Assembly (NCBI GenBank): GCA_016180645.1
Contig: JACPAV010000024.1
Span: forward strand, 1-64,000
Source of the DNA: Nitrospirota bacterium
GTDB lineage: Bacteria > JACPQY01
Reading direction: 5' to 3'
DNA: 64,000 nucleotides
The position numbers were made by a program, and so were the translations under genes. The notes below the pieces were generated by a model. That model ran no database searches and had not been told where the DNA came from. It saw only the letters and a program-made list of their open reading frames with translations. Below, piece by piece: positions 24,639-53,381 of this stretch; position 1 is the stretch's first letter; each line of letters opens with the position of its first letter.

Positions 24639-24647
24639 GGTATCGCC

Positions 24648-24892: not shown

Positions 24893-24896
<4 letters not shown>
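24648..24896 (+). CDS. 82-residue protein of unknown function between nxrA and nxrB
   Basis: It starts 9 bp after nxrA and overlaps the nxrB start by 4 bp (ATGA), so it is clearly part of the operon. It is acidic at the start (MAYDEFDESDPMEF), then DPAVMARAFIEEYALAGMGPERILMLFKTPFYHGTHRLYGQLGEGFIRKEI. It has no signal peptide, Cys or membrane helix and looks all-helical. I recall similar short ORFs (ERIL-LF--PFY-G-H--Y--GE-F) near Fe-S/Mo enzymes, but no function is known to me. It could be an assembly factor or small subunit. Confidence 0.75.
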
Positions 24897-26169
<1,273 letters not shown>

Positions 26170-26173
<4 letters not shown>

Positions 26174-26886
26174 AGCCGGGCGCGGGAATGGAGCCGATGC
26201 GGGAGCCGGAGGAGATTCTGAACCGAGTTCGGAATGGCATCACGGTTTGTCAACCTGCGCTGGTCTCAGGGTCTCCCGCGGAAAAGGCCCTCTGCCGCGC
26301 CTCCTTCTACCGTCTCCTCGCCGCCGGATACGCCTGCCCGAACGGTGATCCCCTGTTTCTGGAAGAAGCCATGGAAGCGGCACCGCTTGTTGGGTCGGTT
26401 GAGGTCGAGCGATTGACCGGCGAATTGGCGGACCTGCCCGCCGAAGCCGGGAACTCCCGGGTGGACGCCCACGCGAGACTCTTTGGGTTCGGAGGGGCGG
26501 GCGAGATCAGCCTCTATGAAACAGAACATGTCGGCCAGGAGATCTTCAGGAAATCGAGGGATTTGGCGGATATCACCGGCTTCTACCGCGCATTCGGAAT
26601 GGAGATCAATTCATCGGATCGGGAGCGGGTGGATCATCTTTCCGTGGAGGCCGAATTCCTATCGTGGTTGTGCGCCAAGCAGGCCGTCGCCCTTTTCGAT
26701 GGGATGATCGAGGAAGCGGGCGTGTGTCGTGAGGCGGAAGCCCGGTTCTTGAAAGATCATTTTCTTCGGTGGGTGCCGGGGCTGGCGGCGAGGATCGCCG
26801 GGAGGTCCGACGGCTTTTATCGAACCCTGAGCCTGCTCACGGTTGCGTTCTTGAGCGTTGTTTCAAAGGAGGAGGAGGCGTCGTGA
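26170..26886 (+). CDS. TorD-family chaperone for the NXR-like enzyme
   Basis: 238 residues overlapping nxrB by 4 bp (ATGA). Family features include LCRASFYRLLAAGYACP near the start, ARLFGFGGAGEISLYETEH, DLADITGFYRAFGMEI and DHLSVEAEFLSWLCAKQAVA. These cytoplasmic all-helical proteins bind the Tat signal of the catalytic subunit and help insert the molybdenum cofactor before export. Its place in the operon points to the 21219 catalytic subunit as client. The last bases contain the strong AAAGGAGGAGG ribosome-binding site of the next gene. Confidence 0.87.
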
Positions 26887-28337
26887 ATTCGGTTGTCGTT
26901 TGTGCTTTGTCCATTCTTGCCGCAACGGGCGGTTCGGAGAGAGCGGCCGCCGATCCGGGTGCCCTCGTGTATGCGGAACGGTGTGCGATCTGCCATGGTC
27001 AGAAAGGGCAGGGAGACGGGGCTGCCGCCCGTTTTCTATACCCGAAGCCGAGAGACTTCACGAAGGGGCTGTTCAAGTTCCGTTCGACGCCCGAGGGCTC
27101 GCTGCCGTCGGATGACGATCTTTTGCGCACCATTTCGAGCGGGCTCCCGGGGTCCGCCATGCCGTCGTTCACCGACCTATCGCAGGATCAGAAAATGTCC
27201 GCGATTCGAGTTGTGAAGTCCTTCTCGCCGAAGTTCTCATCGCAGACCCCCAAGCCGCCGATTGCGGTCGACTCCCCTCCGGCCGCTTCTCCAAAGCTCG
27301 TGGCTCAAGGCAAGCAGCTTTTCGCGGATCTGGACTGTGTGAAATGCCACGGCAAGGCCGGTCTGGGGGATGGTCCTTCGGCCGCGACTCTCAAAGACGA
27401 TTGGGGATTCGCGATTCGACCTCGCGATCTCACACGAGGGGTCTACAAAGGGGGAGGAAGGGACGAGGATCTTTTTCGGCGCATCATGGGCGGGATTCAG
27501 GGCACGCCCATGCCGTCGTTTGCGGATTCCATCGAGGGGGCGGATCGGTGGGCGGTTGCTGCGTATGTGAAATCGCTTGCCGGGGCGGTCGCCGCATCGG
27601 TCGACACCGTCTCTGAAATCCAGGCTGGGAAAGTATCCGGTGAGATCGCCAAGGACCCAAGCGACTCCAGGTGGGAGTCCATTCCCGCGGCGAACGTGCG
27701 CCTTATGCCACTCTGGGAGCGCGGCAAGTCGATCAGTACTGCGGCCGTTCGGGCCATGCACAACGGAAAAGAACTGGCGATTCAAGTGGAGTGGGAAGAT
27801 TCCGAAGTGGCGAGCAACTTTGTGTCTCCGGAGCAGTTTGTTGATGCCGCCGCGATCCAGTTCCCCGTTGGAGCCGGTCTGCCTTCGTTCACGATGGGTG
27901 AGGCCGGCAAACCGGTGAACGTGTGGTACTGGCGGGCGGACCGGGAGGTGAACGCGGCGCCGATCACCACAGTGTCGGCGCATCCCAACGTGGCCGAGGA
28001 CCAGAGGGTGAATCGTGATCCGGTCTACTACACCGGAGCGGCGGTCGGGAACCCGGTATCACTTCCTTCCACGGTGGAAGAATTGAATGCGGAGGGTTTT
28101 GGAACACTTACAACTCAGCCGAAAGCGCAACAGAGCGTCAAGGGTGGGGGGGCTTGGATCGAAGGGAGATGGGTGGTCGTCTTCACGCGAGCGCTCGGCA
28201 AGACGAGTGCGGCCGATGCGACGCTCAAGGCGGGCGGCCACACGCCGGTCGCGTTTGCTATCTGGGACGGCACTCAGCGCGACCGCAACGGCCAAAAGGC
28301 CGTCACGAACTGGCTGACCCTTCGCTTGGCGAAATAA
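26883..28337 (+). CDS. Dihaem cytochrome c fused to an ethylbenzene-dehydrogenase gamma-type haem-b domain
   Basis: 484 residues from a GTG at 26883 that overlaps the chaperone stop (GTGA) and follows AAAGGAGGAGG. A signal peptide (residues 1-24) precedes two cytochrome c domains with CAICH (C34/C37/H38) and CVKCH (C152/C155/H156). The C-terminal half (from ~245) is an EB_dh-type beta-sandwich, with likely haem-b ligands M338 (LPSFTMGEAGKPVNVWYW) and K472 (RNGQKAVTNW), by analogy to EbdC. It resembles NxrC-like subunits. The fusion gives a built-in path from the haem-b gamma site to soluble cytochrome c and the nearby oxidase. Confidence 0.87.
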   Translation: MNSVVVCALSILAATGGSERAAADPGALVYAERCAICHGQKGQGDGAAARFLYPKPRDFTKGLFKFRSTPEGSLPSDDDLLRTISSGLPGSAMPSFTDLSQDQKMSAIRVVKSFSPKFSSQTPKPPIAVDSPPAASPKLVAQGKQLFADLDCVKCHGKAGLGDGPSAATLKDDWGFAIRPRDLTRGVYKGGGRDEDLFRRIMGGIQGTPMPSFADSIEGADRWAVAAYVKSLAGAVAASVDTVSEIQAGKVSGEIAKDPSDSRWESIPAANVRLMPLWERGKSISTAAVRAMHNGKELAIQVEWEDSEVASNFVSPEQFVDAAAIQFPVGAGLPSFTMGEAGKPVNVWYWRADREVNAAPITTVSAHPNVAEDQRVNRDPVYYTGAAVGNPVSLPSTVEELNAEGFGTLTTQPKAQQSVKGGGAWIEGRWVVVFTRALGKTSAADATLKAGGHTPVAFAIWDGTQRDRNGQKAVTNWLTLRLAK

Positions 28338-32453: not shown

Positions 32454-33230
32454 CTACAACCAGGAGATCTCCGGCTCCTTCCGGTCGGACGGCTGATCGT
32501 AAGCCGTTCCCTGCCAAGGATATCCGAGCGTGGACACCGAAGCGATCGTCCACCCGCGCGGCACGCGCAGCTTCTTCATCATATTGGGAGAATACTTGAT
32601 GAACTTGGCGAATCCAATCCAGCAGCTCCCGAGGCCCATGGCATGGGCGGCTAGGGCGAGGTTCTGTGTGGCGGCGGAACAGTCCTCCAGCCAAGTCTGG
32701 GCGCGTTTATTTCCCAGAATGAGGATGAGGACCGGCGCCTTGTGATACGTGTCGGCCGATTTCGATTCGCAGATTGAGCGCATCCCTTGGAGGATTCTTG
32801 GGTCCATCGTCTTGAAGAGTCCGGGATCGAAGATCCTGAAGAGAAGCTTGAGAAATCGCCACCTAAACTCTTTTCGCGTGAATGTTTTCAGGCAGAGGTC
32901 CATGCCCTTGAGGGTAACGGCCCGGATCTTGTCGATCATCTCCGTATCGCGGACGACGACAAACTTCCACGGTTGGGCGTTCATGCCGGACGGCGCCCAG
33001 TGGGCGAGATCGATGATCTTGCGGATAGTTTCTTCGGGAACGGGCGTTCTTTCGTAGAGGCGAACGCTCCGCCGGCTTCGGATGAGGCGCCCGATTTCCT
33101 CGACGGGGTAGGGGTGGAGTACTGCGGCGTCACCCTGAGCGGAGCGAAGGGTCTGTATGGGTGCGGTGTCGAGATTCTTCGCTTCGCTCAGAATGACCCC
33201 CGACGGTGAGACGACGCCCCTTTTCGTCAC
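32454..33230 (-). CDS. Nitroreductase-fold flavoprotein
   Basis: 258 residues if started at the GTG at 33230, which overlaps the ferredoxin stop (GTGA); no ATG precedes the domain. The FMN-binding nitroreductase fold begins IGRLIRSRRSVRLYERTPVPEETI and continues IIDLAHWAPSGMNAQPWKFVVVRD, QNLALAAHAMGLGSCWIG and LGYPWQ. Such enzymes reduce nitro groups, quinones, enones or flavins. Ferredoxin-nitroreductase fusions are common; here the halves are separate but overlapping genes. A dispersed repeat (33129-33197) makes up most of the first ~35 residues (GVILSEAKNL...TLRSAQGDAA), so the native N-terminus was altered. Confidence 0.78.
   Translation of the reverse strand: MTKRGVVSPSGVILSEAKNLDTAPIQTLRSAQGDAAVLHPYPVEEIGRLIRSRRSVRLYERTPVPEETIRKIIDLAHWAPSGMNAQPWKFVVVRDTEMIDKIRAVTLKGMDLCLKTFTRKEFRWRFLKLLFRIFDPGLFKTMDPRILQGMRSICESKSADTYHKAPVLILILGNKRAQTWLEDCSAATQNLALAAHAMGLGSCWIGFAKFIKYSPNMMKKLRVPRGWTIASVSTLGYPWQGTAYDQPSDRKEPEISWL
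33129..33197. repeat. Dispersed repeat (CCCTGAGCGGAGCGAAGGG type) in the nitroreductase N-terminus
   Basis: GTCACCCTGAGCGGAGCGAAGGG, a 15-bp spacer, then GATTCTTCGCTTCGCTCAGAATGAC: two related arms in inverted orientation. It is read in frame on the minus strand. Confidence 0.75.
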
Positions 33231-33544
33231 GCTCTGTCGGAAACGAGTTTTCGTTTCGCCTGAGACAACCCAGTGTACGGGGGGTAATTGTTCAGAGGGG
33301 CATATCCGATCGGCGGCGCGCCGGTGATGATGCGGTTCTGACCCCTGACCTCGATGGCGCCGGGCGAGCAACTCACCTTGCAATTGCGGCAGCCAATGCA
33401 GATGTTCGGAAGCCGCGCGACTTTCCGGTCGACGATCTTGAGGACGCCCATGGGGCAGGTGCGAGTACAGTTGGCGCACAAGTCGCACTTCGAGTGGTCA
33501 ATGATTACGTCGGGACTCTCAATTTGGCCATCGAGGATCAGCAT
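33227..33544 (-). CDS. 2[4Fe-4S] ferredoxin
   Basis: 105 residues. Two cluster motifs are seen: C20-x2-C23-x2-C26-x3-C30 (CDLCANCTRTCP) and C49-x2-C52-x2-C55-x3-C59 (CIGCRNCKVSCS). A tail of about 45 residues has no motif. It lies 3 bp after the acyl-CoA ligase remnant and overlaps the nitroreductase gene (GTGA), so the two should be made together, with electrons passing between ferredoxin and flavoprotein. Confidence 0.88.
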   Translation of the reverse strand: MLILDGQIESPDVIIDHSKCDLCANCTRTCPMGVLKIVDRKVARLPNICIGCRNCKVSCSPGAIEVRGQNRIITGAPPIGYAPLNNYPPYTGLSQAKRKLVSDRA

Positions 33545-33547: not shown

Positions 33548-35097
33548 TCAGGCCAACCTGTGCACGTTTGGACCCGACGGGCTGAACGTGGATTTCAGGA
33601 ACTCGTCCTTTGGCTTCTCCGACGGGGTCTTCGGAATCTCGGATAGGATTTGGACGTAGGTCGGGATGAAGTTTGTCGGGAGGGAAGCCCTGCATCTCTC
33701 TCGAATTGCGGTGGGGAGGAGGGTGCGGCCATCATGAGTGGAAACGGCTGCCACGAGATCGACTTCGCCTGGTGCGCCGGAAGCCGCCGGAACGCCATAG
33801 ACGTAAACCTCCGAAACCTCATCCAGCTCTCCGATGACTTTCTCAACGAAATCGGTCGGCACGAAATCGCCCTGCCGCCTAAGGCTTCGGCCCTTCCGAT
33901 GATCGAAAAACATCCAGCCGTTCTCGTCCGCGTGCCCGATGTCGCCGCTTCTCAGCCATCCTCCGCGGGTCTTGTCCTTCGAGGCTTCAGGATTGCGCAG
34001 GTAGTCCACCTGCGTCGGCCCGAGCTTCATCCGCGACACGATTTCGCCCTGCACGCCGGCCGGCACGTCGCGATCGTTGTCATCTACAATCCGGAAATCG
34101 ATGATGCCGGGGATGCGTTTCTTTCCGAAGGTTCCGTGCGGTCCTTCTCCAATCGGCCGGAACGTGAATCCCCCTTCCACGCTTGCGTACCATTCCAGAA
34201 TGTTCAAGTTGAATCGTTGTTCGAAATCCTCCCAGGCGAGAAGGAGGTGATGCCGTAGCGCCGGGTGACATCCCAGATGCGTTTCTTCGTGAATCTGCGG
34301 CTGATCACGGCGGGGATGCCGAGTTCGAGGGCGGGGTAGACGGTTACGCCCTGCGAGTTACCGTGGGAGAGTGAAAGGCCGGTGTAGAGGATGTCCGATC
34401 GGCGATATCCGAAGAAATGGCCGAGCATGGACATGAAGAAAAAGCGGACATTCGGTTGCACGACCCCTTTCGGATTCCCGGTGGTGCCGGAGGTGTAAAT
34501 GATCTGGAAGGGTGCCCACATATCTTTGGCGCGATCCTGGGGATCGAGACCCTTGGCGCTGTTCAGGATCGGTAGAACGGGTGGGAACCCCGTGGAGCCG
34601 GGCGGCCGTTCCGATTCGATGACGAAGGTATGCTTGATGGCCGGAACTTTGGGAAGAACTTCCTTGGCTTCCGAATCAAGGTTGTCGGCGAAGATGAGCA
34701 GTTTCGACTGGCTGTGATCGAGGATGTAGGTGAGCAGGTCGCCTCGATTTCGTGGGTCGATCGGGACGGCAACCGTGCCCGTGAGGGACGCGGCGGCGAA
34801 GGCGTACAGCATCTCCGGGTAGTTTTGTGAAAAGACGGCGAAGCGGTCGCCTGGCTTGAGACCGCGGGCGAGGAGTTCATGCGCCAAGGCGTGAGACCGC
34901 TGGTTCAGCTGACGCCGAGTGATGCGTTCTTCCGGGTGGTCCCCGTTTTCGAAGATGTACGCGATCGCATCGGGGGACTTGCGCGCTTCCATCTCGATCC
35001 GGTGGCCGAGGATCGCCGGGTTTAGAGGGGAGAGGGCCGCGCGGACACGTCCCGTCAGCATCCGCCGGACGACGGTGAGGGTGGCGAGGGTGTACAC
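33548..35097 (-). pseudogene. Acyl-CoA synthetase (AMP-forming) broken by an out-of-frame internal deletion
   Basis: The N-terminal part (GTG at 35097, or ATG at 35061) is a normal ANL-superfamily ligase with the P-loop IIYTSGTTGNPKGVV, running to DVTRRYGITSF at about 34245. There it shifts frame and stops (SPGRISNNDST). In another frame the sequence resumes at WEDFEQRFNLNILEWYASVEGG and continues through LRSGDIGHADENGWMFFDHRKG to the C-terminal Lys domain (KTPSEKPKDEFLKS), stopping at 33548. About 45-60 codons normally found between these points are missing. Either the gene is dead or the assembly has a local deletion. It would have activated a carboxylic acid as a CoA ester. Confidence 0.8.
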
Positions 35098-35111
35098 GTT
35101 TCCGAGGCGTG

Positions 35112-36326
35112 TCACACGCTGAGTATGTGCACGGCCATCGCGGCGGCTTCGTTCCCGAGCGCGCCTCCGCCGTTCTGGGTGAGGCCGACATTGGCGCCCG
35201 CGACCTGCCGATCGCCGGCCTCGCCTCTGAGTTGCCACACGACCTCCGAGATCTGGGCGATGCCCGTGGCGCCGACCGGATGGCCTTTGGAGCAGAGTCC
35301 TCCGCTTGTGTTCACCGGAATTCGCCCTCCGAGCGTTGTGGCTCCTTCATCCACGAGCCGGCCTCCTTCACCTTCAGCACATAGCCCGAGTTCTTCGTAG
35401 GCGAGAAGCTCGGCGGTGGAAGTGGCATCGTGAACCTCGGCGACGCTGATCTCCTTGGGGCCCAGGCCGGCGATTTCGTAAGCCTTCCGCGCGGCCCGTT
35501 CGACGATGCCCGGCTCTCCGAACGATCGATCTTTCCCCGAAACGAGCACCGAAGCACGAACGTGGATGGGCTTCGTGGTGAATCGCCTGGCCGTGGCTTC
35601 ATCGCAGACGATCGCGGCGGCGGCGCCGTCGCCGATGGGCGACGTCATCATCCGCGTGAGCGGCTCGACGACGGGAGGAGAGCCCATGACTTCATCGACA
35701 GTCACGCGCTCCCGGTACTGGGCGTGTGGGTTGAGGCTTCCGTGGTAATGGTTCTTCACCGCGATCTTCGCAAAGTGTTCTTTCTTTGTGCCGAATCGAT
35801 CCATGTGCATCCGGGCGACCATCGCGTAGAAGTCCATGAACAGGCTCCGCTGTGATCCCGCCTCACCGGGCGCGGGTTTGTCGGACGAGGCCTTCAGGGC
35901 TTCGGCGATTTGCGCCATCATTTCGACATCCACCGCGCTGCCCAGAGCGCGAAAGGATTTCTTCTTGTCCTCATCATAAAGCTTCTCCACCCCGAGGGCG
36001 AGGGCGACATCGATCATCCCCGAAGCCACGGCCATCCAGCCGAGGTGGAACGCCGTCGAAGAGCTGGCGCATGCGTTTTCGGCGTTGACGATGGGGATCG
36101 CCTCGATGCCGAGGGGTCTGAGGAGTACTTGGCCACGTATGCATTCTTGTCCGGACATGAGGCCGGCCATCGCGTTGCCGACGTAGGCGGCTTGGAGTGC
36201 GCCCTTGTCCATTCCGGCATTCTTGAGCGCACTCTCCACGGCCTCGCGGGCGAGGTCTTTCAGAGAACGGTCGGGAAATTTCCCGAAGTGAGTCATGCCG
36301 ACTCCGACGACCATCACTTTTCTCAT
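35112..36326 (-). CDS. SCP2-type thiolase / lipid-transfer-like acyltransferase
   Basis: 404 residues from the ATG at 36326, which overlaps the acyl-CoA dehydrogenase stop (ATGA). Nucleophile C86 lies in AENACASSSTAFHLG. The second Cys (C345) and H349 lie in GGLCSKGHPVGATG, and the NEH-like motif is replaced by EVHDATSTAE, as in SCP-x/SCP2 thiolases. These enzymes cleave branched or steroid side-chain 3-ketoacyl-CoA, or carry out retro-aldol-type cleavage with a DUF35 partner; no DUF35 gene is seen nearby. Its place next to two acyl-CoA dehydrogenases supports a role in side-chain shortening. Confidence 0.87.
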   Translation of the reverse strand: MRKVMVVGVGMTHFGKFPDRSLKDLAREAVESALKNAGMDKGALQAAYVGNAMAGLMSGQECIRGQVLLRPLGIEAIPIVNAENACASSSTAFHLGWMAVASGMIDVALALGVEKLYDEDKKKSFRALGSAVDVEMMAQIAEALKASSDKPAPGEAGSQRSLFMDFYAMVARMHMDRFGTKKEHFAKIAVKNHYHGSLNPHAQYRERVTVDEVMGSPPVVEPLTRMMTSPIGDGAAAAIVCDEATARRFTTKPIHVRASVLVSGKDRSFGEPGIVERAARKAYEIAGLGPKEISVAEVHDATSTAELLAYEELGLCAEGEGGRLVDEGATTLGGRIPVNTSGGLCSKGHPVGATGIAQISEVVWQLRGEAGDRQVAGANVGLTQNGGGALGNEAAAMAVHILSV

Positions 36327-37564
36327 GAATCCTCCCACGATTCGGCAATTCTCATTCGCTGGATTTGGTTGGTGCCTTCATAAATCTGAGTGAGCTTTAC
36401 GTCACGGAACGCCTTCTCGACTCCTGCCGCCGCTGTGACGCCGCTCTCCCCAAGGAGATCGATGACACGAGAACAGACCTCCATGGAGACGTCGCTGGCA
36501 AAGCATTTCGACATGGCCGACAAGGCCGGATCGGGCGGGAAAGTTGAGGCGGCCCTCCAGACGAGAGTCCGGGCGGCCTCGATCTTCATGGCGAGATCGG
36601 CCAGTTCGTACTTCAAACTGCGATCGGCCATGCCTCCCGACGTTCGCGCGATCGCCATGGCCTTCTCGAAGGCGAATCGCGCCGACCCGAGCGCAATTGC
36701 GCCCACGGCGGGGCGTGAGAGGTCCAAAGTCTGGTGATTCAGGCGCCATCCCTCGCCTTCGGCGCCTACGCGGTGATCCTCCGGAATGTGCACATCTTCC
36801 AAGATCAGCTCGGCCGCCGGACTGGCGCGCTGCCCCATCTTGTGTTCGACGCGGCCGATGGAAAACCCCTTGGAGTCGGTGGGGACGACGAATGCCGTCC
36901 ACGAGGAGATTCCCTTCTCTTTGTCGAGGGCGGCGAAGACCGTGACGTGCGTCGCCAGGTTCCCCCCCGAGATGAAACATTTGCATCCGTTCAAAACGTA
37001 CCCACCGTTCTCGCGACGGGCAAACGTCGACAGTTTCGCCTTGCGGCTGCCTTCGGTGTCCTCAACATCGGAGCCCGCGGACGGCTCGGTGATGGCGAAG
37101 GCGAAGAGGGCAGGCCGTTCCGTGCGCGACCGCTCCGCCACGAGCCGAAGGAATTTCTTGAGGATGCGTGGATCGAACGAGATGAACAACGGGAGCAGCC
37201 CGAGCGTATGTGCGCCGAACAGGACGCAGACGCCGGGACAGACCGCCGCGATCTCTTCCGTGAAAACGGCGGCCTTGAGGAGTCCGAAACGGAAGAAGTC
37301 GATCATGCTCAAATCGCCTCCGTACCGTTTCGGTACCAGCATCGTCAGCCAACCGGCGTGGCCGGCTTTTCGGATCAGTTCGAGTTGCAACGCGTCGGTG
37401 GGATGACGGTCCAGCTCTGGAACATGCGGCGCGATCTCCTTGTCCAGCCAGATTCGCAATTCGGTCCGGAACCGCTCCAATGCCTTCGGTGTTTTCAGGG
37501 GGTCGCGCAGCCCGGGTTTCGAGAAGAGTTTCTTCCCAAGCCAGTTGTAGAAGTCAGTTGCCAT
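36323..37564 (-). CDS. Acyl-CoA dehydrogenase, catalytic type
   Basis: 413 residues from the ATG at 37564, which overlaps the upstream gene by 11 bp. Typical features are FAITEPSAGSDVEDTEGS (FAD/substrate region), CKCFISGG, ATHVTVFAALD, and the C-terminal motif IYEGTNQIQR, whose Glu (E396) matches the catalytic base of medium/short-chain enzymes. It introduces a 2,3-double bond into an acyl-CoA. It is encoded directly with a second, degenerate member, suggesting a mixed complex. Confidence 0.9.
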   Translation of the reverse strand: MATDFYNWLGKKLFSKPGLRDPLKTPKALERFRTELRIWLDKEIAPHVPELDRHPTDALQLELIRKAGHAGWLTMLVPKRYGGDLSMIDFFRFGLLKAAVFTEEIAAVCPGVCVLFGAHTLGLLPLFISFDPRILKKFLRLVAERSRTERPALFAFAITEPSAGSDVEDTEGSRKAKLSTFARRENGGYVLNGCKCFISGGNLATHVTVFAALDKEKGISSWTAFVVPTDSKGFSIGRVEHKMGQRASPAAELILEDVHIPEDHRVGAEGEGWRLNHQTLDLSRPAVGAIALGSARFAFEKAMAIARTSGGMADRSLKYELADLAMKIEAARTLVWRAASTFPPDPALSAMSKCFASDVSMEVCSRVIDLLGESGVTAAAGVEKAFRDVKLTQIYEGTNQIQRMRIAESWEDS

Positions 37565-38591
37565 GGTGGTCTTCGTCCAGCCGGGCCCCGGCCCGATCGA
37601 CCAGATTGCGGTTGGATCGGCCGATGATGCAGAGCGTCTTGGCGTCCCGCAGTCGTTTTTCCAGCCCATAGTCCTCCATGTAGCCGTATCCGCCGAGGAC
37701 TTGAATCGCCTCCGAGCAAATCTGTTCAGCCGATTGGGTGGCGAACGCCTTGGCGAGTCCGGCTTGGACCGGATCCCTCGATTCGATGGCCTTGTCGACC
37801 AAAGCGCGTGTGGCTGCATTCAGCATGGTCATCCGACCGAGCATCGTCCGAATGACCGGATGATCGATGATCAGACCGCATCCCTGGTATCGGCTCCGGG
37901 CGTAGTCCGTTGCTTCACGGATGGCCGATTCCGCATTGGAGGCGGCGACGGCGGCCAGCCAAGGGAGGGAAATCGCCTCGGTGGAGCGGGCAAGGGCGCG
38001 CGCCGACGAAATGTCGAGCGTCAGGATCGAACTCTTCTCCTGCCGGTCGTTCTCGGCCCCGAAATCTCCAAAGCGGCAGGCACGCAGCCCCAGCAATCCA
38101 TCCGTCGAATCCTGCGTGAGGAGGGGGAGCAGGCTGAAGGATCCGGTTGTTCCGCTCTCGGAGTAGTCCACCGCCTGGATCGACGCCGTGGAGCCGAAGG
38201 AGCGGTGCGGGACTCCCGGCGCCAATCCCGCGGAACTGCATGCTGTGAGCTCCGTCCTGTTAATGGATTGGCCCGATAGCCAGAAGGGGAGGCAGCCGGA
38301 GTAATGCGACCAGAGTGCCGCGGCGACCCCCGGACACGTTGCCGCGATTTCCCGAAGAATCGCGGCGATCAATCCCGGGCTCGAGGGATCCGCAGCGTCA
38401 AACGGAGGATCGAGGAGCCCGTTGGCGCCAAGTTGGGAGGATATCTCGCCCCACGCCCGCGCGGATTGATCCGAGTCGAATGCTCGCAATTGTGGAAGGA
38501 TCACGGACTGGGCCAGCCGGCGCGCTGTGGCCCCGACTTGGACGAGTAGATCAGCGGAATCGGGGAGTCGGGAAATCGGCGTGGCGCTCAC
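37554..38591 (-). CDS. Acyl-CoA dehydrogenase-like partner lacking the usual catalytic Glu
   Basis: 345 residues from a GTG at 38591 that overlaps the upstream stop (GTGA). The fold is recognisable (LGGYGYMEDYGLEKRLRDAKTL, YARSRYQGCGLIIDHPVIRTMLGRM), but where catalytic members have YEGTN this one has CIIGRSNRNL, so no acidic base is present there. The protein is also shorter. Heteromeric acyl-CoA dehydrogenases of steroid side-chain degradation (alpha2beta2, for example FadE28-FadE29/ChsE1-ChsE2) likewise pair complete and incomplete subunits. I infer a complex with the gene product encoded at 36323-37564. Confidence 0.82.
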   Translation of the reverse strand: MSATPISRLPDSADLLVQVGATARRLAQSVILPQLRAFDSDQSARAWGEISSQLGANGLLDPPFDAADPSSPGLIAAILREIAATCPGVAAALWSHYSGCLPFWLSGQSINRTELTACSSAGLAPGVPHRSFGSTASIQAVDYSESGTTGSFSLLPLLTQDSTDGLLGLRACRFGDFGAENDRQEKSSILTLDISSARALARSTEAISLPWLAAVAASNAESAIREATDYARSRYQGCGLIIDHPVIRTMLGRMTMLNAATRALVDKAIESRDPVQAGLAKAFATQSAEQICSEAIQVLGGYGYMEDYGLEKRLRDAKTLCIIGRSNRNLVDRAGARLDEDHHGN

Positions 38592-39169
38592 GATTGCTCA
38601 CCTCCGAAGTGTCGTTCAATATCCGTCAGCACCGCGGAGACGATGGCACCCAGCACGCCGGATTCCAGCGTGGGAAACCGGTCGAGGAGGGCCCGGACGG
38701 GCCAGCCGAGATAGCGCACCTCGCCGCCGAGACCGAACGTGACGATCGAGGACCCGTGACCATCGGCCATGAGTCCCCAGTATCCACGGAACTTCTGCGA
38801 AGAGCCGTCCTTGAGTTCGAAGTCAATCCGACGTCCCGGATGCTCCATGACGTGCATGGTGAGGTCCACGCCGATCTTGATGAACGACACGTGCGCGCCG
38901 AACTTCATGCGGACTTCCGCGTGATGACCGTTCCGTTTGAGGAGCTTCTCGGCGGCGATGACGTGGAGGACGTCCGGGTGGCTTCCGTAGTCGGTGAGGA
39001 ACTTCCAGATCTCCTCGGAGTTCGCCTGGGCGGAAACCGCGCCGCCGGATGCCGGCTCGACGCCGAGCCGACTTTTCAGGACGACCGGCCCGTGCTTGAG
39101 GGCGTTTCGGAGCGCCTTCGCCGACAGGATCTTGTGAACCTCGATCATTGTGTTTTCGTCATGGACCAT
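38588..39169 (-). CDS. SRPBCC (START-like) fold protein
   Basis: 193 residues if started at the ATG at 39169; an ATG at 39148 lies just after the upstream stop and is equally possible. The core SAQANSEEIWKFLTDYGSHPDVLHVIAAEKLL ... DLTMHVMEHPGRRIDFELKDGSSQKFRGYWGLMADGHGSSIVTFGLGGEVRYLGWPVRALLDRF is a typical coenzyme Q-binding/polyketide-cyclase-like START domain with a hydrophobic pocket. It may bind or carry a lipid-like pathway intermediate. It overlaps the acyl-CoA dehydrogenase partner gene by 4 bp. Confidence 0.75.
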   Translation of the reverse strand: MVHDENTMIEVHKILSAKALRNALKHGPVVLKSRLGVEPASGGAVSAQANSEEIWKFLTDYGSHPDVLHVIAAEKLLKRNGHHAEVRMKFGAHVSFIKIGVDLTMHVMEHPGRRIDFELKDGSSQKFRGYWGLMADGHGSSIVTFGLGGEVRYLGWPVRALLDRFPTLESGVLGAIVSAVLTDIERHFGGEQS

Positions 39170-42041
39170 GACCCATGACTCTTCGATAGTCGATCCGCGT
39201 GTCGCGATCGCTTTGTCCCGGTTGGAGAATGGCGGGGACGGGTCGGATGTGGCCATAGTCCCCGACCAATTCGATCGGATTGATCGGGCTGGGCAGCACG
39301 TTTCGGTAACCCATCCCGCCCTCGAACTGATAATTTTCCCAAGCGTGGTAGATCATGGCCTGCCCCGGCCGGACGGCGGGCGACGTTTTGGCCATGATCA
39401 CGAACGATCCGATATCATTGCGCACGGTGACGCGGTCGCCATCGCGAACTCCCCGGCGCCGAGCATCGGCCCCGTTTACGTACATGACGGGAAGCCCGCG
39501 TTGGAGCCGGAGCATGGACGCATCCGAGCGCCAGGTAGAGTGGATGCTCCAGCGGGTGTGCCCGCCGGTCAACGTTACCGGGTAGTCACCCGCGGCTTTC
39601 GGTGGGTCCTTGTGCACCGGCAATTCCTCGCCGAGTTCCAGGTAGAGGTCGTGGTCGATGTAGAACTGGACGCGGCCCGTGAGCGTGGGCCACGGCATTT
39701 TCTTCTCGGTAAACCACGTATGCGGGCTGATTGTTTCCCCCGGCTTGATATCACACGCGTTCCCCCAGTTTCCGGGGTTGCGCCCCAGCCCGGTGAAGCG
39801 CGCGTAGCCTTTCTCCTTCAGTTCCTTCCAACGCGTCTTGCCAAGGTTGGTCGAGGCGTTCACCACGTTCTCGGAAATCTTGTCCCCGCGGTCGGGTGGA
39901 AGATCGCCGCCGTCCGTCATCTCCCTAAACACCCGGTCGAGGCGGCGTTCGCGTCCCATTCGATCGACGTAGGGCTTCAGGCGCCGCTCGCGCGCGACCC
40001 TCTGGAGGTGTTTCGCCAGAGCACAGAAGATTTCCCATTCATCCTTGGCTTCGAAATACGACGTTGCCTTCTGTGTGATGTGGTCGAATGGAGCCAGAGA
40101 GTTGGTGTTCCCGCCGATGAGGGTCGTCTTTTCGTAGGCGGAGGCGACGGGGAGGACGAAATCGGAATACAAGGCCGTCGAACTCATCCGGAGCTCCGTG
40201 GATACGATGAGGTCGAGCTTCGGGAAGAAGTGCTCCAGAAGCTTGTGGGCGCTACGCACGCGCCGCAGCGGATTGCCCATGAGACTCCAGTAGACGTTGG
40301 GACGCTTCGGCGGTCGTGGATCGACCACCTGCCAATTCTTCTTCCAAGCCTCGCGGATGTATTCGTCCACGTCTTTCTTGAGATGCGGATCCCACTCGCG
40401 CGAGCGGCCGCTCACTTCCGCGAGCCCGCCGTGGACGTACCAGAAAAGCGTCGAGTTGGTCAGAAAGCGATCGTGGATATACGTTTCGCGCATCAGCTCG
40501 AGCACCGCGTCTCTCCAACCCCGGCCCTGCCGGATCATTTTATAGATGGCGGGGGAGTTTCGGAGCAGAATACGGGCGAGCCGTCCGGGTCGGGCCGAGA
40601 GGTACTGCGTGAATCCATCCGGCAGGAGGAAGGAGGCCGACACATAGCCGGCGCCCTTCCGGCCGAGATGCCCGCACAAAACGTAGATGAGAATCTGCGC
40701 CCGCATCATGAGATCGCCGTGGTAGAACTTCGAGATATTGCTGGTGCAGACGTTGGTGGCCGCCTTGGCATCCGCCATCATGTGGGCGAGCTTGCGAATC
40801 AGGTCCGGGGGGGTGCCGCAGATCCTGGATGCAGGCTCCGGATCGTAGGAACGGAGCATGTCCTTCAGAAGCTCGAAGGCCGGGCGGACCTTCACGCGGC
40901 CATGGAGAGTTTCGACTTCGAATTCCCCTTCAAGCGCGGGGAGGATCTTGCCGAGTTTCAGCGTATCCGTCCGCGCGGGGACCACGCTGCGACCGGTCAG
41001 GTCGAACAGGTGGAAGAGGGCGTCATCACCCCCACTCTTCATGTCCGATTCGCGCAGGAATTTGCGGTTGTCCATGCGCACGAGGAAGGGGAGATCGGTT
41101 TGCTCACGGATCAGATCGGCGTTGTATCGCTTCTCGGAAACAACCACGTGCGCCATGGAAAGGGCGAGAGCGGCATCGGTGCCGGGTTTCACGGGGACCC
41201 AGAGGTCCGTGTGGACGCTGGAGGGACTGAAGTCCGGGCAGACCGAGACGATTTTCGTGCCGTTGTAGCGGGCTTCGAGCAGGAAGTGCATGTTGGGGAT
41301 CTGGGTGTAGACGGGATTCCCGCCCCACACGAGGATGAGGTCCGAATTGAACCAGTCGTCCGCCGACCGGTCGCATCCGGGGTGCCCATACGTAACGGCG
41401 GCGCCCTGCTGCTCGTCACCGATCTCGCAATTGATGTCCATGAACACGGTACCCATGTGGTCGGAGAGGAGCCAGGCGCTTGCAAAGGAGATCACGGAAA
41501 CGGGATTGCCGCCGGGATCCCAGACGACGGAATCCGGGCCGTCCTTCTGGATCGAGTCGACGATCCGCTCCGCGATTTCACCGAGCGCTTCATCCCATGA
41601 AACCCTCTGCCATTTGCCGTTCCCCCTGGGCCCCACGCGTTTCAAGGGATATTTGAGGCGGCTCGGGTTGATCATCATGGCCGCGTAGCAGGCGCCCTTG
41701 TTGCAGCCACGGGGATTGAAATCCGGAACCTGATCGTTCGTTTGCGGATAGTCGGCTACCTGTTCTTCGCGAAGGACCACGCCGTCTTTGACATACAGGT
41801 GGAAGAGGCAATTCTGTTGGTACCAGCAGTTGAGGTTGTGAGTGCTTTTGACGACGGAATCCCACGTCCAACTCTGACGGTAGAGGTCTTGGTAGCCGGA
41901 ATAGGATCGTGGCTCGTGGTTCGTCGCTCGTGGCTCGTGAGGAGTGGGCTTCGAACATGAGGGGAGGAAATGGGGGAGGCTGAGGGCGAGAGACCCGGTT
42001 CCGGTGATCTCGAGAAATTGCCTGCGGGAAACGAGTCCCAT
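39159..42041 (-). CDS. Ethylbenzene/steroid-C25-dehydrogenase-like Mo catalytic subunit, paralogue 1
   Basis: 960 residues with a Tat signal (SRRQFLEITGTGSLALSL) followed by lipobox-like FLPSC (C29). FS0 ligand candidates are H68, C72, C78 and C113 (H-x3-C-x5-C ... NPRGC). D224 in PGCDRSADDWFNSD aligns with the Mo-ligating Asp of EBDH/NarG. The length and the motifs QDLYR..WTWD, GGHTRWSIHSTWR and IYHAWENYQF are typical of type II DMSO-reductase hydroxylases acting on C-H bonds with water as oxygen source. Residues ~34-46 (HEPRATNHEPRS) come from a degenerate tandem DNA repeat (41905-41941). It lacks its own beta gene and lies 1 bp from paralogue 2. Confidence 0.87.
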   Translation of the reverse strand: MGLVSRRQFLEITGTGSLALSLPHFLPSCSKPTPHEPRATNHEPRSYSGYQDLYRQSWTWDSVVKSTHNLNCWYQQNCLFHLYVKDGVVLREEQVADYPQTNDQVPDFNPRGCNKGACYAAMMINPSRLKYPLKRVGPRGNGKWQRVSWDEALGEIAERIVDSIQKDGPDSVVWDPGGNPVSVISFASAWLLSDHMGTVFMDINCEIGDEQQGAAVTYGHPGCDRSADDWFNSDLILVWGGNPVYTQIPNMHFLLEARYNGTKIVSVCPDFSPSSVHTDLWVPVKPGTDAALALSMAHVVVSEKRYNADLIREQTDLPFLVRMDNRKFLRESDMKSGGDDALFHLFDLTGRSVVPARTDTLKLGKILPALEGEFEVETLHGRVKVRPAFELLKDMLRSYDPEPASRICGTPPDLIRKLAHMMADAKAATNVCTSNISKFYHGDLMMRAQILIYVLCGHLGRKGAGYVSASFLLPDGFTQYLSARPGRLARILLRNSPAIYKMIRQGRGWRDAVLELMRETYIHDRFLTNSTLFWYVHGGLAEVSGRSREWDPHLKKDVDEYIREAWKKNWQVVDPRPPKRPNVYWSLMGNPLRRVRSAHKLLEHFFPKLDLIVSTELRMSSTALYSDFVLPVASAYEKTTLIGGNTNSLAPFDHITQKATSYFEAKDEWEIFCALAKHLQRVARERRLKPYVDRMGRERRLDRVFREMTDGGDLPPDRGDKISENVVNASTNLGKTRWKELKEKGYARFTGLGRNPGNWGNACDIKPGETISPHTWFTEKKMPWPTLTGRVQFYIDHDLYLELGEELPVHKDPPKAAGDYPVTLTGGHTRWSIHSTWRSDASMLRLQRGLPVMYVNGADARRRGVRDGDRVTVRNDIGSFVIMAKTSPAVRPGQAMIYHAWENYQFEGGMGYRNVLPSPINPIELVGDYGHIRPVPAILQPGQSDRDTRIDYRRVMGHGP
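41905..41941. repeat. Degenerate tandem repeat (CGTGGCT) in the hinge of paralogue 1
   Basis: About five imperfect copies of a (T)CGTGGCT unit, read in frame just after the lipobox Cys. A related run is at the matching position of paralogue 2 (44815-44850). Confidence 0.7.
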
Positions 42042-42042
42042 G

Positions 42043-44949
42043 CTAGACCTTCCGGATTTCCACGCGCGTGTCGCGATCGAACTGGCCGGGGGAGAGCATG
42101 GCGGACATGGGGCGCAGTTGAAGTTGCCCCCCCGCGAGTTCGACGGGATTGATGGGCGAGGGAATCAGATTTTGGAAACCGTCGCCGTTCTTGAATTGGA
42201 AGTTCTCCCAGGCGTGATAGATGATGATCTGTCCTGGTCGCAGGCTGGGTGAGACTTTCGCGTGAATCCGAAATCGGTTGAGGTCGTTGCGGACTTCGAT
42301 TTCGTCCCCGTCGCGGATTCCGCGGTGGTGCGCATCCGTCGAGCTGAGGTAGGCGACGGGCACTCCCCGCTGGAGCCTGAGCATGTACGCATTGTCCCGC
42401 CACGCCGCGTGGATGCTCCATCGCGTGTGGCCCCCACCGAGCATGAGCGGGTACGTTCCCCCCGCGGTCGGGGGATCCTTCTGGACGGGCAGTTCTTCGC
42501 CCAGTTCCAGGTACAGGGGATGATCTTGATAGAACTGAATTCGCCTTGTAGCGGTGGAGTAGGGGATCTTCTTCTCCGTATGATGCGTGAAGGGCGTGAT
42601 CGTTTCATTCGGTTTGATATCGCAGGCGTTGCCATTGGAGAGAATCCCGTTCCCGGGGGAGGTAAATCGGGCGAACCCTTTCTTCTTGAGTTCTTCCCAT
42701 TCGATTCCGCCGAGATTGGTGCTTTTCTTGATGAGGAGGCCGGCCAGGGCGTCGTCGCCCCCTTCGTCGAACCGGCCGCCGGCCGAGACTTCATCATAGG
42801 CGGTTTCGAAGTGGCGCGTTTTTCCCCACCGGTCCTTGAATGTCTCGAGACCTCGCTCGCGTGCGCGGTCCCGGATCTTCTTCGCGATGAGCAGGCAGAT
42901 CTCCCAGTCTGAACGGGCCTCGAAGAACTGCGTCATCTTGGAACCGACGTGGATGAAAGGCGTGAGCGGAGTAACCCATTTGTGTTCCGTCTTCTCGTAC
43001 CAGCCGGCTGCGGGCAGGACGATGTCCGCCCATTGGGTGGTGGAGGTCATTCTCCAATCAATCGCGACGAACTTGTGGAGCTTCGGCAAGAGCGTCTTGT
43101 TGAGAAACGTGTAGGCTCGGAGGCGCCGCCAGATGTTGCCGCCGTAGGTGAAGAGGACGCGGGGCTTTTTGTTGACCGGCGGCCAGATGGACTGCCATTT
43201 TTCCTTGAACGATTCGTGGAGGAAGTCGCCGAGGTCGCGCTTCATGGCCGGGTCCCACTCGCGGGATCGTCCGCTGGCTTCGATCACACCCCCGTGTATC
43301 GCCCAGAAAAGGGTGCCGGAAGTCAGGAGCCCTTTTTCGTGCAGACCTTCGCGGGCAAGCTCGTACACGACCATTTCCTTCGTGTAGTCCTCGGTGAACC
43401 GCTTCTTGATGGCGGAAGGCAGGATCGCTCCGTTGAGGGCAAGGATCTGCTTGGCGCCTTCAAGGGAGTAGGGAGTCATGAGGAACTTCTCGATGCCGTC
43501 CTGGTAGATGAACGGAAAGGCCGAGTATCCGCCGCCCTTCCTGCCGATGTGTCCGCAAAGGGAGAGAAGGAGGATGATCGAACGTTCGACGAGGTTGCCG
43601 TGATAATATTTTCCGAAATTGCTGCTCGTGACGTTGCAGACCGCTTCGGCCCTGGCGATGTCTCGCGCGAGCGCGGTGATCCGGGTGGCGGGGATGCCGG
43701 TCGTTTTCTCGACGGACTCGGCTCCGTATCCGCGGAGTGTCTCCTTTAGAAGATCGAAGACCGGGCGCACGCGGACAGCGCCAGCCGGGGTCTGAACCAC
43801 GTGCGAACCGGAAAGGGAGGGGACGACCTTGCCCCACTTGAGCCGGCGTCTCGGGGCTTTTCGCAGGGACTGGGAGGTCTCGTCCCAGACGTAAAACTTC
43901 TCCGCTCCGACGCGTTCCTTCTCTGAGGCGGCCGATCGATCGGTTTCAGGCTTGAAGTCGCTATCGCGAAGGAACCGGCGGGTGTCCTCTCTCACCAAGA
44001 GGGGGAGGTCCGTTTGCTCGCGGATGAAATCGGCGTTCTGCAAGTTCTCATCGATGATGGTTTTGCACAGGCCCAGCGCCAGGGCGGCATCCGTGCCCGG
44101 CCGGATCGAGAGCCATTGGTCAGTGTGGATGGACGACGCATTCAGGTCGGGGGCGATGGAAACGATTCGCGTTCCCTTGTACCGGGCCTCGTTTAGAAAG
44201 TGGACGTTCGGAATTTGCGTGTAGACGGGATTGCATCCCCAGATGAGGATGATGTCGGAATTGAACCAGTCGTCCGCCGATCGTTCGCAGATGACGTTGC
44301 CGAACGTGACGGCCGCCCCGTGGTGGGCGTCCCCGATCTCGGGGTTCATATCGAGGGTGACTTGGTCCAGGTGGACGGCCAGTTTCATCTGGCCCGCGGT
44401 GAAGGTGCCCATCGTGATCAGGGGGCCGATTTCCCAGACGATCGTGTCGGAGCCGTCCTGGAGCGTTGTGTCGATGACCGCATCGGCGATTTCGGTCAGC
44501 GCCTCGTCCCATGAAATTCTTTTCCATCGGCCGCTGCCGCGTTCGCCGATCCGTTTCAGCGGGTACTTGACCCGAGTGGGCTCGTACATGCGCTGGCTGT
44601 AGCAGACCCCCTTTTGACAGCCACGCGGGTTGAAGTCGGGGACGCCCGCATGGGTCTGCGGATACTCCCCGGCCTGTTCTTCGCGGAGCACGATCCCGTC
44701 CTTCACGTAGACGTCATAGGCGCAATGGGCCTGGTACCAGCAGTTGACGAAGTGAGTGGAGCGAACGGTCTTGTCCCAGGTCCATTTGGAGCGGTAGAGA
44801 TCTTGGAAGCTGTGGTACGTGGCTCGTGGCTCGTGGCCCGTGGCTCGCGGTTTACCGGAATCAGGCGAGACACAAGAGGGGGTGAGATGGAGGAGGGTAA
44901 GGCTGAGTGCGCCTGTCCCCGTCAGCTCGAGAAATTCTCTACGTTCCAT
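42043..44949 (-). CDS. Ethylbenzene/steroid-C25-dehydrogenase-like Mo catalytic subunit, paralogue 2
   Basis: 968 residues from the ATG at 44949 (MERREFLELTGTGALSLTLL), chosen because it begins the Tat motif; it overlaps the upstream gene by 11 bp. Lipobox-like LTPSC (C26). FS0 candidates H66, C70, C76 and C111, with the same H-x3-C-x5-C spacing as paralogue 1. At the Mo-ligand position it has Glu (E222, ICERSADDWFNSD) where EBDH-type enzymes have Asp. Late motifs GGHTRWSIHAAWR and IYHAWENFQFK are kept. It is probably a water-dependent hydroxylase with altered Mo site or substrate. Beta and gamma subunits must come from elsewhere in the operon. Confidence 0.86.
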   Translation of the reverse strand: MERREFLELTGTGALSLTLLHLTPSCVSPDSGKPRATGHEPRATYHSFQDLYRSKWTWDKTVRSTHFVNCWYQAHCAYDVYVKDGIVLREEQAGEYPQTHAGVPDFNPRGCQKGVCYSQRMYEPTRVKYPLKRIGERGSGRWKRISWDEALTEIADAVIDTTLQDGSDTIVWEIGPLITMGTFTAGQMKLAVHLDQVTLDMNPEIGDAHHGAAVTFGNVICERSADDWFNSDIILIWGCNPVYTQIPNVHFLNEARYKGTRIVSIAPDLNASSIHTDQWLSIRPGTDAALALGLCKTIIDENLQNADFIREQTDLPLLVREDTRRFLRDSDFKPETDRSAASEKERVGAEKFYVWDETSQSLRKAPRRRLKWGKVVPSLSGSHVVQTPAGAVRVRPVFDLLKETLRGYGAESVEKTTGIPATRITALARDIARAEAVCNVTSSNFGKYYHGNLVERSIILLLSLCGHIGRKGGGYSAFPFIYQDGIEKFLMTPYSLEGAKQILALNGAILPSAIKKRFTEDYTKEMVVYELAREGLHEKGLLTSGTLFWAIHGGVIEASGRSREWDPAMKRDLGDFLHESFKEKWQSIWPPVNKKPRVLFTYGGNIWRRLRAYTFLNKTLLPKLHKFVAIDWRMTSTTQWADIVLPAAGWYEKTEHKWVTPLTPFIHVGSKMTQFFEARSDWEICLLIAKKIRDRARERGLETFKDRWGKTRHFETAYDEVSAGGRFDEGGDDALAGLLIKKSTNLGGIEWEELKKKGFARFTSPGNGILSNGNACDIKPNETITPFTHHTEKKIPYSTATRRIQFYQDHPLYLELGEELPVQKDPPTAGGTYPLMLGGGHTRWSIHAAWRDNAYMLRLQRGVPVAYLSSTDAHHRGIRDGDEIEVRNDLNRFRIHAKVSPSLRPGQIIIYHAWENFQFKNGDGFQNLIPSPINPVELAGGQLQLRPMSAMLSPGQFDRDTRVEIRKV
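44815..44850. repeat. Degenerate tandem repeat (CGTGGCT) in the hinge of paralogue 2
   Basis: Imperfect copies of CGTGGCT/CGTGGCC read in frame as GKPRATGHEPRATYH, between the lipobox Cys and the conserved FQDLYRSKWTWD. Confidence 0.7.
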
Positions 44950-46000
44950 AGTGCAGTTCGAAAACCCCGCGGCCGGCGCCGTCCTTTCCCTCAAAGCGAG
45001 AGGCGTGGTCGTTCAGGCCGGTGACCGACTGCCGGAGTTGGGGGTCCAGACGAGAATTCCACGATTCGCCCTCGACGACCGAAGGGCCGCGATCCGTTCC
45101 GTGGTAGACGCCGTTCAGCCCATCGTACAGGCCTCCTCGGAGATACACAGTAGAAAAGGGAGTTACAGTTATTTCCTCGATATGACTTGAAGTGTGAATT
45201 CTCAGGTGTGCCTTCTGAAAACGAGCGGACTCCGGATCAAGGATCACGTCGTGCTCGACGTCGATAATGGGAGTCACGCGGCCGTCCTTCTCCGTGATGA
45301 ATCCCGTGAAATGGCGGTTTCCACCTCCGGGATCGTGAGTGCCGAAATACCAGAATTGTCGGTTCGGCGTACTGAATAACACCCAGTAGAGCAGAAAGCC
45401 CCAGTGAAGTTTCTGGAAAGCACCGAGCCATTCGAGTTCCCCGCCGCCTCCGATTCCCGGGCGAACTCCCCAAGACCGATCCCGACCGGCCCACCAGGAG
45501 TCTGGACGGACATCGATCTTCCGGGAGCCGAGGCGAATGACGCCCCGCGGACGGCCGGTTTGAGCGAAGGTACACCATCGGATGGGAAGGCTATTGACCG
45601 TTTCCGGCTCTCCATGAGGCAAGGTGTGTGGGGCCGGTTGCAGGTCGGAGTCGAATTCGATCTCGTAAGAGAAATCCGCTGCGCCGGAATTCGATGCGAA
45701 GAGCCATTTCCGCCCGCCGCTCTTGATCTCGGCCCGAACGGGTCCCACTCGGAGATCGGAACCGGAGCATCCGGGGCGGACGGCTGCCCGCAGGTTGTAC
45801 TGGATATTCGAATCGACGAGCAGGGCGAAGGCATCCATGGTGCCCAAGTTCGGGTAGACGCCGATCCCCTGCCCAAGGGCGTATCGGCCGTCGTGCGAAT
45901 GCACGTTGAGCCAGTAGCGCTCGAACCATCGAAGATCCGCGGCGCTGACGTTGGGCCACCGATCCGAGGGGAAGTGTCGAAACTCATCGTCCAAGAACAC
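44939..46000 (-). CDS. Beta-rich conserved protein, tentatively AttH/lipocalin-like
   Basis: 353 residues from a GTG at 46000 that overlaps the previous stop by one base (TAGTG); a longer reading from 46033 would overlap more. Trp/Tyr/Gly-rich: DLRWFERYWLNVHSHDGRYALGQGIGVYPNLGTMDAFALLVD, RKIDVRPDSWWAGRDRSWGVRPG and LLYWVLFSTPNRQFWYFGTHDPGG. The WWAGRDRSWGVRP and paired beta-strand pattern suggest a CrtC/AttH-type double lipocalin that binds a hydrophobic ligand (DUF7064/7065-like; not certain). It has no signal peptide. It is cotranslated with the 141-residue protein and paralogue 2, so a role in handling the lipid substrate is plausible. Confidence 0.65.
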   Translation of the reverse strand: MFLDDEFRHFPSDRWPNVSAADLRWFERYWLNVHSHDGRYALGQGIGVYPNLGTMDAFALLVDSNIQYNLRAAVRPGCSGSDLRVGPVRAEIKSGGRKWLFASNSGAADFSYEIEFDSDLQPAPHTLPHGEPETVNSLPIRWCTFAQTGRPRGVIRLGSRKIDVRPDSWWAGRDRSWGVRPGIGGGGELEWLGAFQKLHWGFLLYWVLFSTPNRQFWYFGTHDPGGGNRHFTGFITEKDGRVTPIIDVEHDVILDPESARFQKAHLRIHTSSHIEEITVTPFSTVYLRGGLYDGLNGVYHGTDRGPSVVEGESWNSRLDPQLRQSVTGLNDHASRFEGKDGAGRGVFELHYGT

Positions 46001-46427: not shown

Positions 46428-47462
46428 TCAGTTGGAAATGAGGCTTAGGGTGTCCTCGACAATGCGGGGAATGAGAAATCCCAGGATGCCGAGCTGCGCG
46501 GAGGGTCGCGTACCCTCGCAGAAGACGCGGACTCCGGAAAGAAAGATGGCGGTCGTCTTGACGTTCGCGAGGACGCGATAGAATCGGAACTTGCCAGGAT
46601 CGACTTCCCGGCCGGAACGCCGGGCGTATTCCCGGCAGAACTCGTCAACGGGCAGGAGGCCCGATGCCCAGCCGTCGCGGTTCGCCCAGAACTTCAGGCA
46701 GGCCCAGGCCACGTCTTCGACAGGATCGCCGAGATGCGTGAGCTCCCAATCCAGCACGGCATGAAGAGTGCCGGCGTCGTCATAGAGGTAATTCCCCGAG
46801 CGATAATCTCCGTGGACGATGGTGACTTCTCCTTTTTTGGGAAGGTGTTCGTTCAGCCAGCGGAGGGCGAGATCGACGGGGGGGAGCGGTTCCGTCCGGT
46901 CTTTCAAATAGACCTTCGTCCAGAGATCCACCTGCTGTTGGGCTGCCGCGCGCCCATTTTCCGGGACTTTGAAGACCGTGCCGAGGCCGCAGTTCCTCCA
47001 ATCCACCGCGTGGATGTTGCATAGGAGTTGAATGAACTGATCCGCCAGTTTCGTTTTCAACTCCGCCGGCTCGTAGCTCGGAAGCGTGCTGGTTGGAGAG
47101 GCGTGGCCTTCCATGCGATGCATGATGATCGATGGGCGTTCAAGCCGGGAGCCGTCCGCATCGAGCCAGTAGACGCGGGGTGCGCGCACGGGGAAGCGTT
47201 CCAGTGTTTTCAGGAGCGCGAACTCGACGGTGCGGTCGGTGGTGACGCCCGCTTCAAGGAGCGATTTCGGCGGATCGCGGCGGAGGATGCAGGCGCGCCG
47301 CTCGCCGATCGCCCCGTTGGCCGGGACCAGGTCGAATACCCAATTCTCGCGCGAGGCGCCGGCGGATCCCGTCCCAAGGCGGCGCAGACCTTCGACCCTG
47401 GGGGCTTGTCCGGGTGGGGAACTCTCGGTGATGAACCTGGAGATCCGCTCCTGGAGATCCAT
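46428..47462 (-). CDS. Aminoglycoside-phosphotransferase-fold kinase (ACAD10/FadE36-like)
   Basis: 344 residues from the ATG at 47462, overlapping the paralogue 3 stop (ATGA). The APH fold has catalytic IVHGDYRSGN (D219, N224) and the Mg-binding LDWELTHLGDP. In lipid and steroid catabolism such proteins occur beside acyl-CoA dehydrogenases and phosphorylate hydroxylated acyl-CoAs (as the ACAD10/11 kinase domain does to 4-hydroxyacyl-CoA). Here a product hydroxylated by the Mo enzymes would be a logical substrate; that is inference. No antibiotic-resistance role is suggested by the context. Confidence 0.82.
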   Translation of the reverse strand: MDLQERISRFITESSPPGQAPRVEGLRRLGTGSAGASRENWVFDLVPANGAIGERRACILRRDPPKSLLEAGVTTDRTVEFALLKTLERFPVRAPRVYWLDADGSRLERPSIIMHRMEGHASPTSTLPSYEPAELKTKLADQFIQLLCNIHAVDWRNCGLGTVFKVPENGRAAAQQQVDLWTKVYLKDRTEPLPPVDLALRWLNEHLPKKGEVTIVHGDYRSGNYLYDDAGTLHAVLDWELTHLGDPVEDVAWACLKFWANRDGWASGLLPVDEFCREYARRSGREVDPGKFRFYRVLANVKTTAIFLSGVRVFCEGTRPSAQLGILGFLIPRIVEDTLSLISN

Positions 47463-53361: not shown

Positions 53362-53381
53362 CGAAAGGATCCGGCTCCCCC

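Follow-up and report, generated by a model that had tools for sequence, protein, structure and literature searches.

Two overlapping acyl-CoA dehydrogenase genes in a Nitrospirota bacterium probably encode one enzyme with a composite active site

The gene pair and its operon

We analyzed a stretch of 64,000 nucleotides from a Nitrospirota bacterium (contig JACPAV010000024.1), which we call the window. On its minus strand are two overlapping genes for relatives of acyl-CoA dehydrogenases (ACADs). The upstream gene encodes a protein that we call D, and the downstream gene encodes a protein that we call C. The features of the pair are:

37554 to 38591, minus strand: D subunit, ACAD-like protein without the catalytic Glu (GTG start, 345 amino acids; open reading frame and Pfam)
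36323 to 37564, minus strand: C subunit, catalytic ACAD (ATG start at 37564, 413 amino acids; open reading frame and Pfam)
37554 to 37564, minus strand: overlap of the D stop and the C start, 11 nucleotides (sequence)
37602 to 37631, minus strand: CIIGRSNRNL in D, which replaces the YEGTN loop (sequence and alignment)
36377 to 36379, minus strand: codon of Glu396 of C, the predicted catalytic base in the J-K loop (invariant in the family alignment and in 30 of 30 C proteins)
37881 to 37892, minus strand: RYQG in D, cross-subunit FAD motif (R234 corresponds to MCAD R281; R234, Q236, and G237 are invariant in 28 D proteins)
37683 to 37703, minus strand: QVLGGYG in D, cross-subunit FAD motif (Q297, G300, and G301 correspond to MCAD Q349, G352, and G353; invariant in 28 D proteins)

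A sequence-only reading of this DNA had placed an ACAD pair at 36323 to 38591, with overlapping genes and a shorter upstream member. The coordinates proved to be exact, D is indeed shorter than C (345 versus 413 amino acids), and the two genes do overlap. The start codon of C is internal to a longer open reading frame that opens at 37819. There are also 4-nucleotide overlaps at both flanks of the pair (between the SRPBCC gene and D, and between C and the thiolase gene), so by its layout this is one transcription unit. The neighboring genes are:

32454 to 33544, minus strand: ferredoxin and nitroreductase genes (Pfam; conserved in the related genome G001)
33548 to 35238, minus strand: AMP-forming CoA ligase, split in two open reading frames (Pfam; compared with the intact G001 gene)
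35112 to 36326, minus strand: SCP2/Ltp-type thiolase (Pfam and NCBIfam; the NACAS cysteine is kept, by inspection)
38588 to 39256, minus strand: SRPBCC/polyketide-cyclase-fold protein (Pfam)
39159 to 44994, minus strand: two type II DMSO-reductase alpha subunits, ethylbenzene-dehydrogenase-like (NCBIfam for the second; both are orthologous in G001)
46428 to 47843, minus strand: APH-family kinase (Pfam APH, 103 bits)
47462 to 57433, minus strand: two further molybdenum hydroxylase alpha subunits, with chaperone, Fe-S beta subunits, and EB_dh gamma (Pfam, NCBIfam)

The gene order of the whole operon is conserved in G001. In total, the cluster has genes for four alpha subunits that resemble that of ethylbenzene dehydrogenase, for beta and gamma subunits and chaperones, and for an Rv3169-family protein. 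For the two further alpha subunits, the closest PDB chain was ethylbenzene dehydrogenase (2IVF), in a comparison set without S25DH. The suggestion that the pair lies in a different context from the actinobacterial steroid enzymes was borne out: its neighbors are molybdenum enzymes that resemble ethylbenzene and steroid C25 dehydrogenases, and an APH-family kinase.

The intact CoA ligase of G001 has 574 amino acids (L101 5870-7591). In the window, the counterpart of its residues 312-343 is missing and the frame changes, because of either a lesion or an assembly error. Elsewhere in the window, the plus strand at 21144-28337 has the gene for another type II DMSO-reductase alpha subunit, a remote one (1164 amino acids, 321 bits), followed by genes for an Fe-S beta subunit, a chaperone-like protein, and an EB_dh gamma subunit with cytochrome c domains fused to it. 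The minus strand has cytochrome oxidase genes at 15985-20081.

D lacks the catalytic glutamate

The D sequence RDAKTLCIIGRSNRNL aligned opposite the C sequence RDVKLTQIYEGTNQIQR. As had been noted from the sequence, one partner is without the catalytic Glu: D has CIIGRSNRNL, versus IYEGTNQIQR, which is retained in C. ACADs carry their catalytic base at one of two sites, the J-K loop (Glu376 in the mature numbering of MCAD) or helix G, as in LCAD and IVD (PMC11153573). An alternative active-site Glu in D, which would have refuted the sequence-only reading, is absent at both positions: a phmmer alignment to the MCAD T255E/E376G protein placed Ser208 at the helix-G position, and the multiple alignment has Ser at that position and Gly at the 376 position.

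FAD-binding residues are divided between the two proteins

In ordinary ACADs such as MCAD, R281, Q349, and G353 reach from the neighboring subunit to the FAD pyrophosphate. We gathered related pairs from 60 genomes and from GTDB contigs, with paired open reading frames identified by position, and aligned the window pair and 29 relatives with canonical ACADs (MCAD numbering). D keeps R281, Q349, G352, and G353 in all 30 pairs and has Glu376 in none of them. C is the opposite: Glu376 and the Asp of TExxAGSD, a motif that D has lost, are kept in 30 of 30, while Q349 and G353 are lost in 30 of 30 and R281 in 29. Where D has QVLGGYG, the window's C reads DLLGESG. The FAD residues are thus divided between the chains in every pair at Q349, G353, and E376. 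Pairs were selected on the absence of [YF]EG[TS] from one member, which means that the Glu column is partly a product of the selection; the R281, Q349, and G353 columns are not. Also, the 30 rows count loci and cannot be taken as independent events: close relatives are included (for example, L023, L024, L025, and L029), and a single ancestral change could be inherited by many of them.

As judged from these alignments, the loss is reciprocal, with each partner retaining what the other lost. This loss and its conservation were observed directly, as were the gene overlap in the window and the mirrored trees described below. Local decay of one gene was ruled out, as the same split recurs at about 30 loci. 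D does evolve faster (39% identity to its G001 relative, versus 70% for C), but it is not simply decaying, because its invariant columns (across 28 proteins) are mainly the FAD motifs.

The genes of the related pairs are adjacent and mostly overlapping. Across 28 pairs, the trees of C and D mirror each other (r = 0.893, with none of 2000 permutations as high), and 17 of 25 splits are common to both trees. This supports a complex without proving it: co-inheritance of neighbors gives the same signal.

Domains and predicted structures

In Pfam, the match of D is confined to the C-terminal ACAD domain (2e-23), and C matches the N-terminal, middle, and C-terminal domains. For both proteins, no NCBIfam model scored above its cut-off. 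In searches of plasmid sequences, there was no high-coverage match for D, and the only matches for C were ACADs with under 40% identity. We built AF2 models of the single chains from the family alignments. The model of D (pLDDT 82, pTM 0.87) has the ACAD fold, with ACADs as its PDB matches and a shortened middle domain of six strands (residues about 118-193). The model of C (pLDDT 90, pTM 0.89) best matches MCAD/BCAD-type structures in the PDB.

Other ACAD pairs

The same genome has a second heteromeric-looking pair, on contig C7 (L106 856-1938, L121 756-3302), with a P450 gene between the subunits. Its C matches 4X28_A at 213 bits, and its D matches Tcur3481 and FadE27. As this pair is FadE26/27-like, the steroid-like and window types coexist in this genome. 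Contigs C35 and C11 each carry a further pair, in which a small ACAD accompanies a full one (L122 8399-10699, L123 8076-10348). The C members of these two pairs form a clade next to OWN_L113, an ordinary ACAD that this genome also encodes, and fall outside both the window type and the steroid type, which suggests another separate origin.

The same search found pairs from Chloroflexota in which the Glu is all that the partner has lost (IGGPTE) and every FAD residue is still present in the catalytic member (L057, L058, L059, L061, L062, L068, L074, L075, L077, L079, and L090). These are a different and less split kind, and were left out of the count of 30. Finally, L105 8149-9291 encodes an ACAD with RYQGG and QVLGGYG but without the Glu of YEGT; a catalytic partner was not seen among the ACAD matches in its stretch.

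A two-subunit enzyme with a composite active site

Our best explanation, to which we give a probability of roughly 80%, is that D and C form one conserved two-subunit ACAD of the alpha2beta2 type, with a composite active site. C would supply the substrate site, the flavin site of the middle domain, and the catalytic Glu396. D, no longer catalytic and with little left of the flavin site of its middle domain, would contribute the Arg, Gln, and Gly-Gly that in ordinary ACADs reach the FAD pyrophosphate from the other side of the dimer. There would be one FAD per C/D interface, which would lead to an alpha2beta2 tetramer with two active sites; other subunit arrangements, such as an alpha-beta dimer, are possible. 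Judging by the residues that each has kept, neither D nor C looks able to work alone. We favor this explanation because of the reciprocal residues, the mirrored trees, the adjacent genes, the ACAD folds, the precedent of ChsE4-ChsE5, and the conservation of the operon in G001; the formation of the complex, its stoichiometry, and its activity are what we infer.

We considered whether C might instead be an ordinary homotetrameric ACAD, with D as a decaying or regulatory paralogue. C is full-length and has all three ACAD domains, and D diverges faster, which would fit. However, at all 30 loci C is without the FAD residues that each chain of a homotetramer would have to supply to its neighbor; D keeps exactly those residues, and its reading frame is intact at every locus. 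This makes an ordinary homotetramer very improbable.

The sequence-only reading had matched the pair to the alpha2beta2 ACADs of steroid side-chain degradation. The match holds for the architecture (adjacent ACAD genes, only one of them with the catalytic Glu, and a reciprocal split of the FAD residues) but not for the clade. If the pair were a true member of the steroid FadE26/27-FadE28/29 clade, then the shared architecture and a context that resembles side-chain oxidation would be expected. Also, the proposed phylogenetic check did not separate D from the steroid D proteins: grouping it with FadE27 and Tcur3481 gave p-AU 0.706, with long branches. On the other hand, the Glu of C is in the J-K loop and not in helix G, and C groups in a clade of 28 members (100/100), separate from that of the steroid C proteins FadE26 and Tcur3483 (100/100). 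Forcing their union was 37 log units worse, with a modest p-AU of 0.035. Furthermore, the solved steroid chains are absent from the best 60 profile matches and the best 50 fold matches, and another pair in the same genome does match them. We therefore rejected C as a member of the sequenced FadE26/27 clade and consider membership of the pair unlikely. This comparison covers two solved pairs, and some of the other Mtb and proteobacterial pairs may use the J-K loop. From its sequences, the window pair appears to belong to a branch that is distinct from the sequenced steroid pairs and is found in many uncultured bacteria.

Pathway and substrate

The content of the operon suggests, without proving it, that a side chain of a steroid- or isoprenoid-like kind is oxidized without oxygen. 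Anaerobic cholesterol degradation uses two molybdenum-dependent hydroxylations, the first at C25 and the second at C26, together with a phosphotransferase-family kinase (PMC7411048, PMC8449060). The cluster has molybdenum hydroxylases of the ethylbenzene dehydrogenase family with beta, gamma, and chaperone genes, as this route would lead one to expect, and its kinase falls under the same broad family description as 25-hydroxysteroid kinase, a likeness of description only (PMC8449060). In the scheme for S. denitrificans (PMC8449060), dehydration has already introduced the Delta24 double bond, which would leave work for an ACAD only in later rounds of beta-oxidation.

The substrate could be a bulky side chain, isoprenoid- or steroid-like, in the form of its CoA ester, after oxidation without oxygen by the neighboring molybdenum hydroxylases and the kinase; we would put this somewhat below even odds. 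Alternatively, the heteromer might be real but the substrate of the operon might be a hydrocarbon or aromatic side chain (an alkylbenzene, alkane, or terpene). This is a serious possibility, although we would not quite bet on it: among solved structures and NCBIfam models, with S25DH absent, the molybdenum alpha subunits match ethylbenzene dehydrogenase best, and the fold of C resembles MCAD and cyclohexene-carboxyl-CoA dehydrogenases. Against a hydrocarbon or aromatic side chain, an APH-family kinase suits the tertiary-alcohol dehydration route of sterol side chains (PMC8449060), and the same genome has the FadE26/27-like pair beside a P450. We also asked whether a Pro that begins helix E might indicate a bulky substrate. 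This Pro is present in C from the window and from G015 but is Ser in G001, and we did not use it.

In other phyla, the genes near the pairs show no shared pathway. There were no molybdenum genes in the examined flanks of these pairs, so this type of enzyme is not tied to that pathway. At L033 7882-14454 and L051 9386-15131 (MAGs from Actinomycetes and Myxococcales), the pair has a CoA ligase and a thiolase as neighbors, and this thiolase shares 48-50% identity with the one in the window. The L033 neighborhood additionally has a nitroreductase. Together, these neighborhoods hint at a core module that does without the molybdenum genes.

Implications

Composite-site ACADs have been described as a feature of steroid catabolism. 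Our most ambitious reading is a tentative one, which we think is more probably wrong than right: that composite-site ACADs evolved a second time, independently, as a family that has an MCAD-type catalytic loop, is widespread in uncultured bacteria, and works here in an oxygen-independent operon for sterol or isoprenoid side chains in a poorly sampled lineage. If the clade does represent a second origin outside of steroid catabolism, then the composite architecture would be a recurrent remodelling of the ACAD site, and many proteins from uncultured bacteria that are annotated as single ACADs would be half-enzymes, inactive when expressed alone. It would also link a composite ACAD to the molybdenum hydroxylase route for oxygen-independent attack on side chains, which has been studied in only a handful of organisms.

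Comparison with known systems

The operon resembles the sterol side-chain route of Sterolibacterium (S25DH, 25-HSK, S26DH) in having several ethylbenzene-dehydrogenase-like molybdenum enzymes and a phosphotransferase-family kinase, a likeness drawn from the kinds of genes and not from orthology. Unlike in that route, the kinase, the hydroxylases, and the ACAD pair share one cluster.

In ChsE4-ChsE5, ChsE1-ChsE2, and the bile-acid pairs, which reviews describe as heterotetramers, each heterodimer has a single catalytic Glu and a single FAD; the Glu and the site for the isoalloxazine are in the alpha chain, and the beta chain contacts the ADP-ribose (PMC8399759, PMC11153573, PMC6678751). Like the window pair, ChsE4-ChsE5 (FadE26-FadE27, PDB 4X28) and Tcur3483-Tcur3481 (PDB 6WY8/6WY9) have two subunits, of which one is catalytic, and a small partner (345-370 amino acids) that keeps the cross-subunit FAD residues. 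They differ in the location of the Glu: in helix G, FadE26 (4X28_A) and Tcur3483 have LNHER, with a Glu that in FadE26 (ChsE4) is presumably the catalytic base, whereas C has LDLSR, with Ser; in the J-K loop, the steroid proteins have Gly, whereas C has the Glu of YEGTN.

In its fold, its J-K-loop YEGTN, and its TExxAGSD motif, C is like the MCAD/BCAD-type homotetramers (1UKW, 3PFD, 7P98). In those enzymes, however, all of the FAD residues are in one chain, whereas in the window they are spread over two genes. As best we can read these sequences, the split design is the one known from steroid degraders, and what seems to be new is a separate branch of C that uses an MCAD-type catalytic loop.
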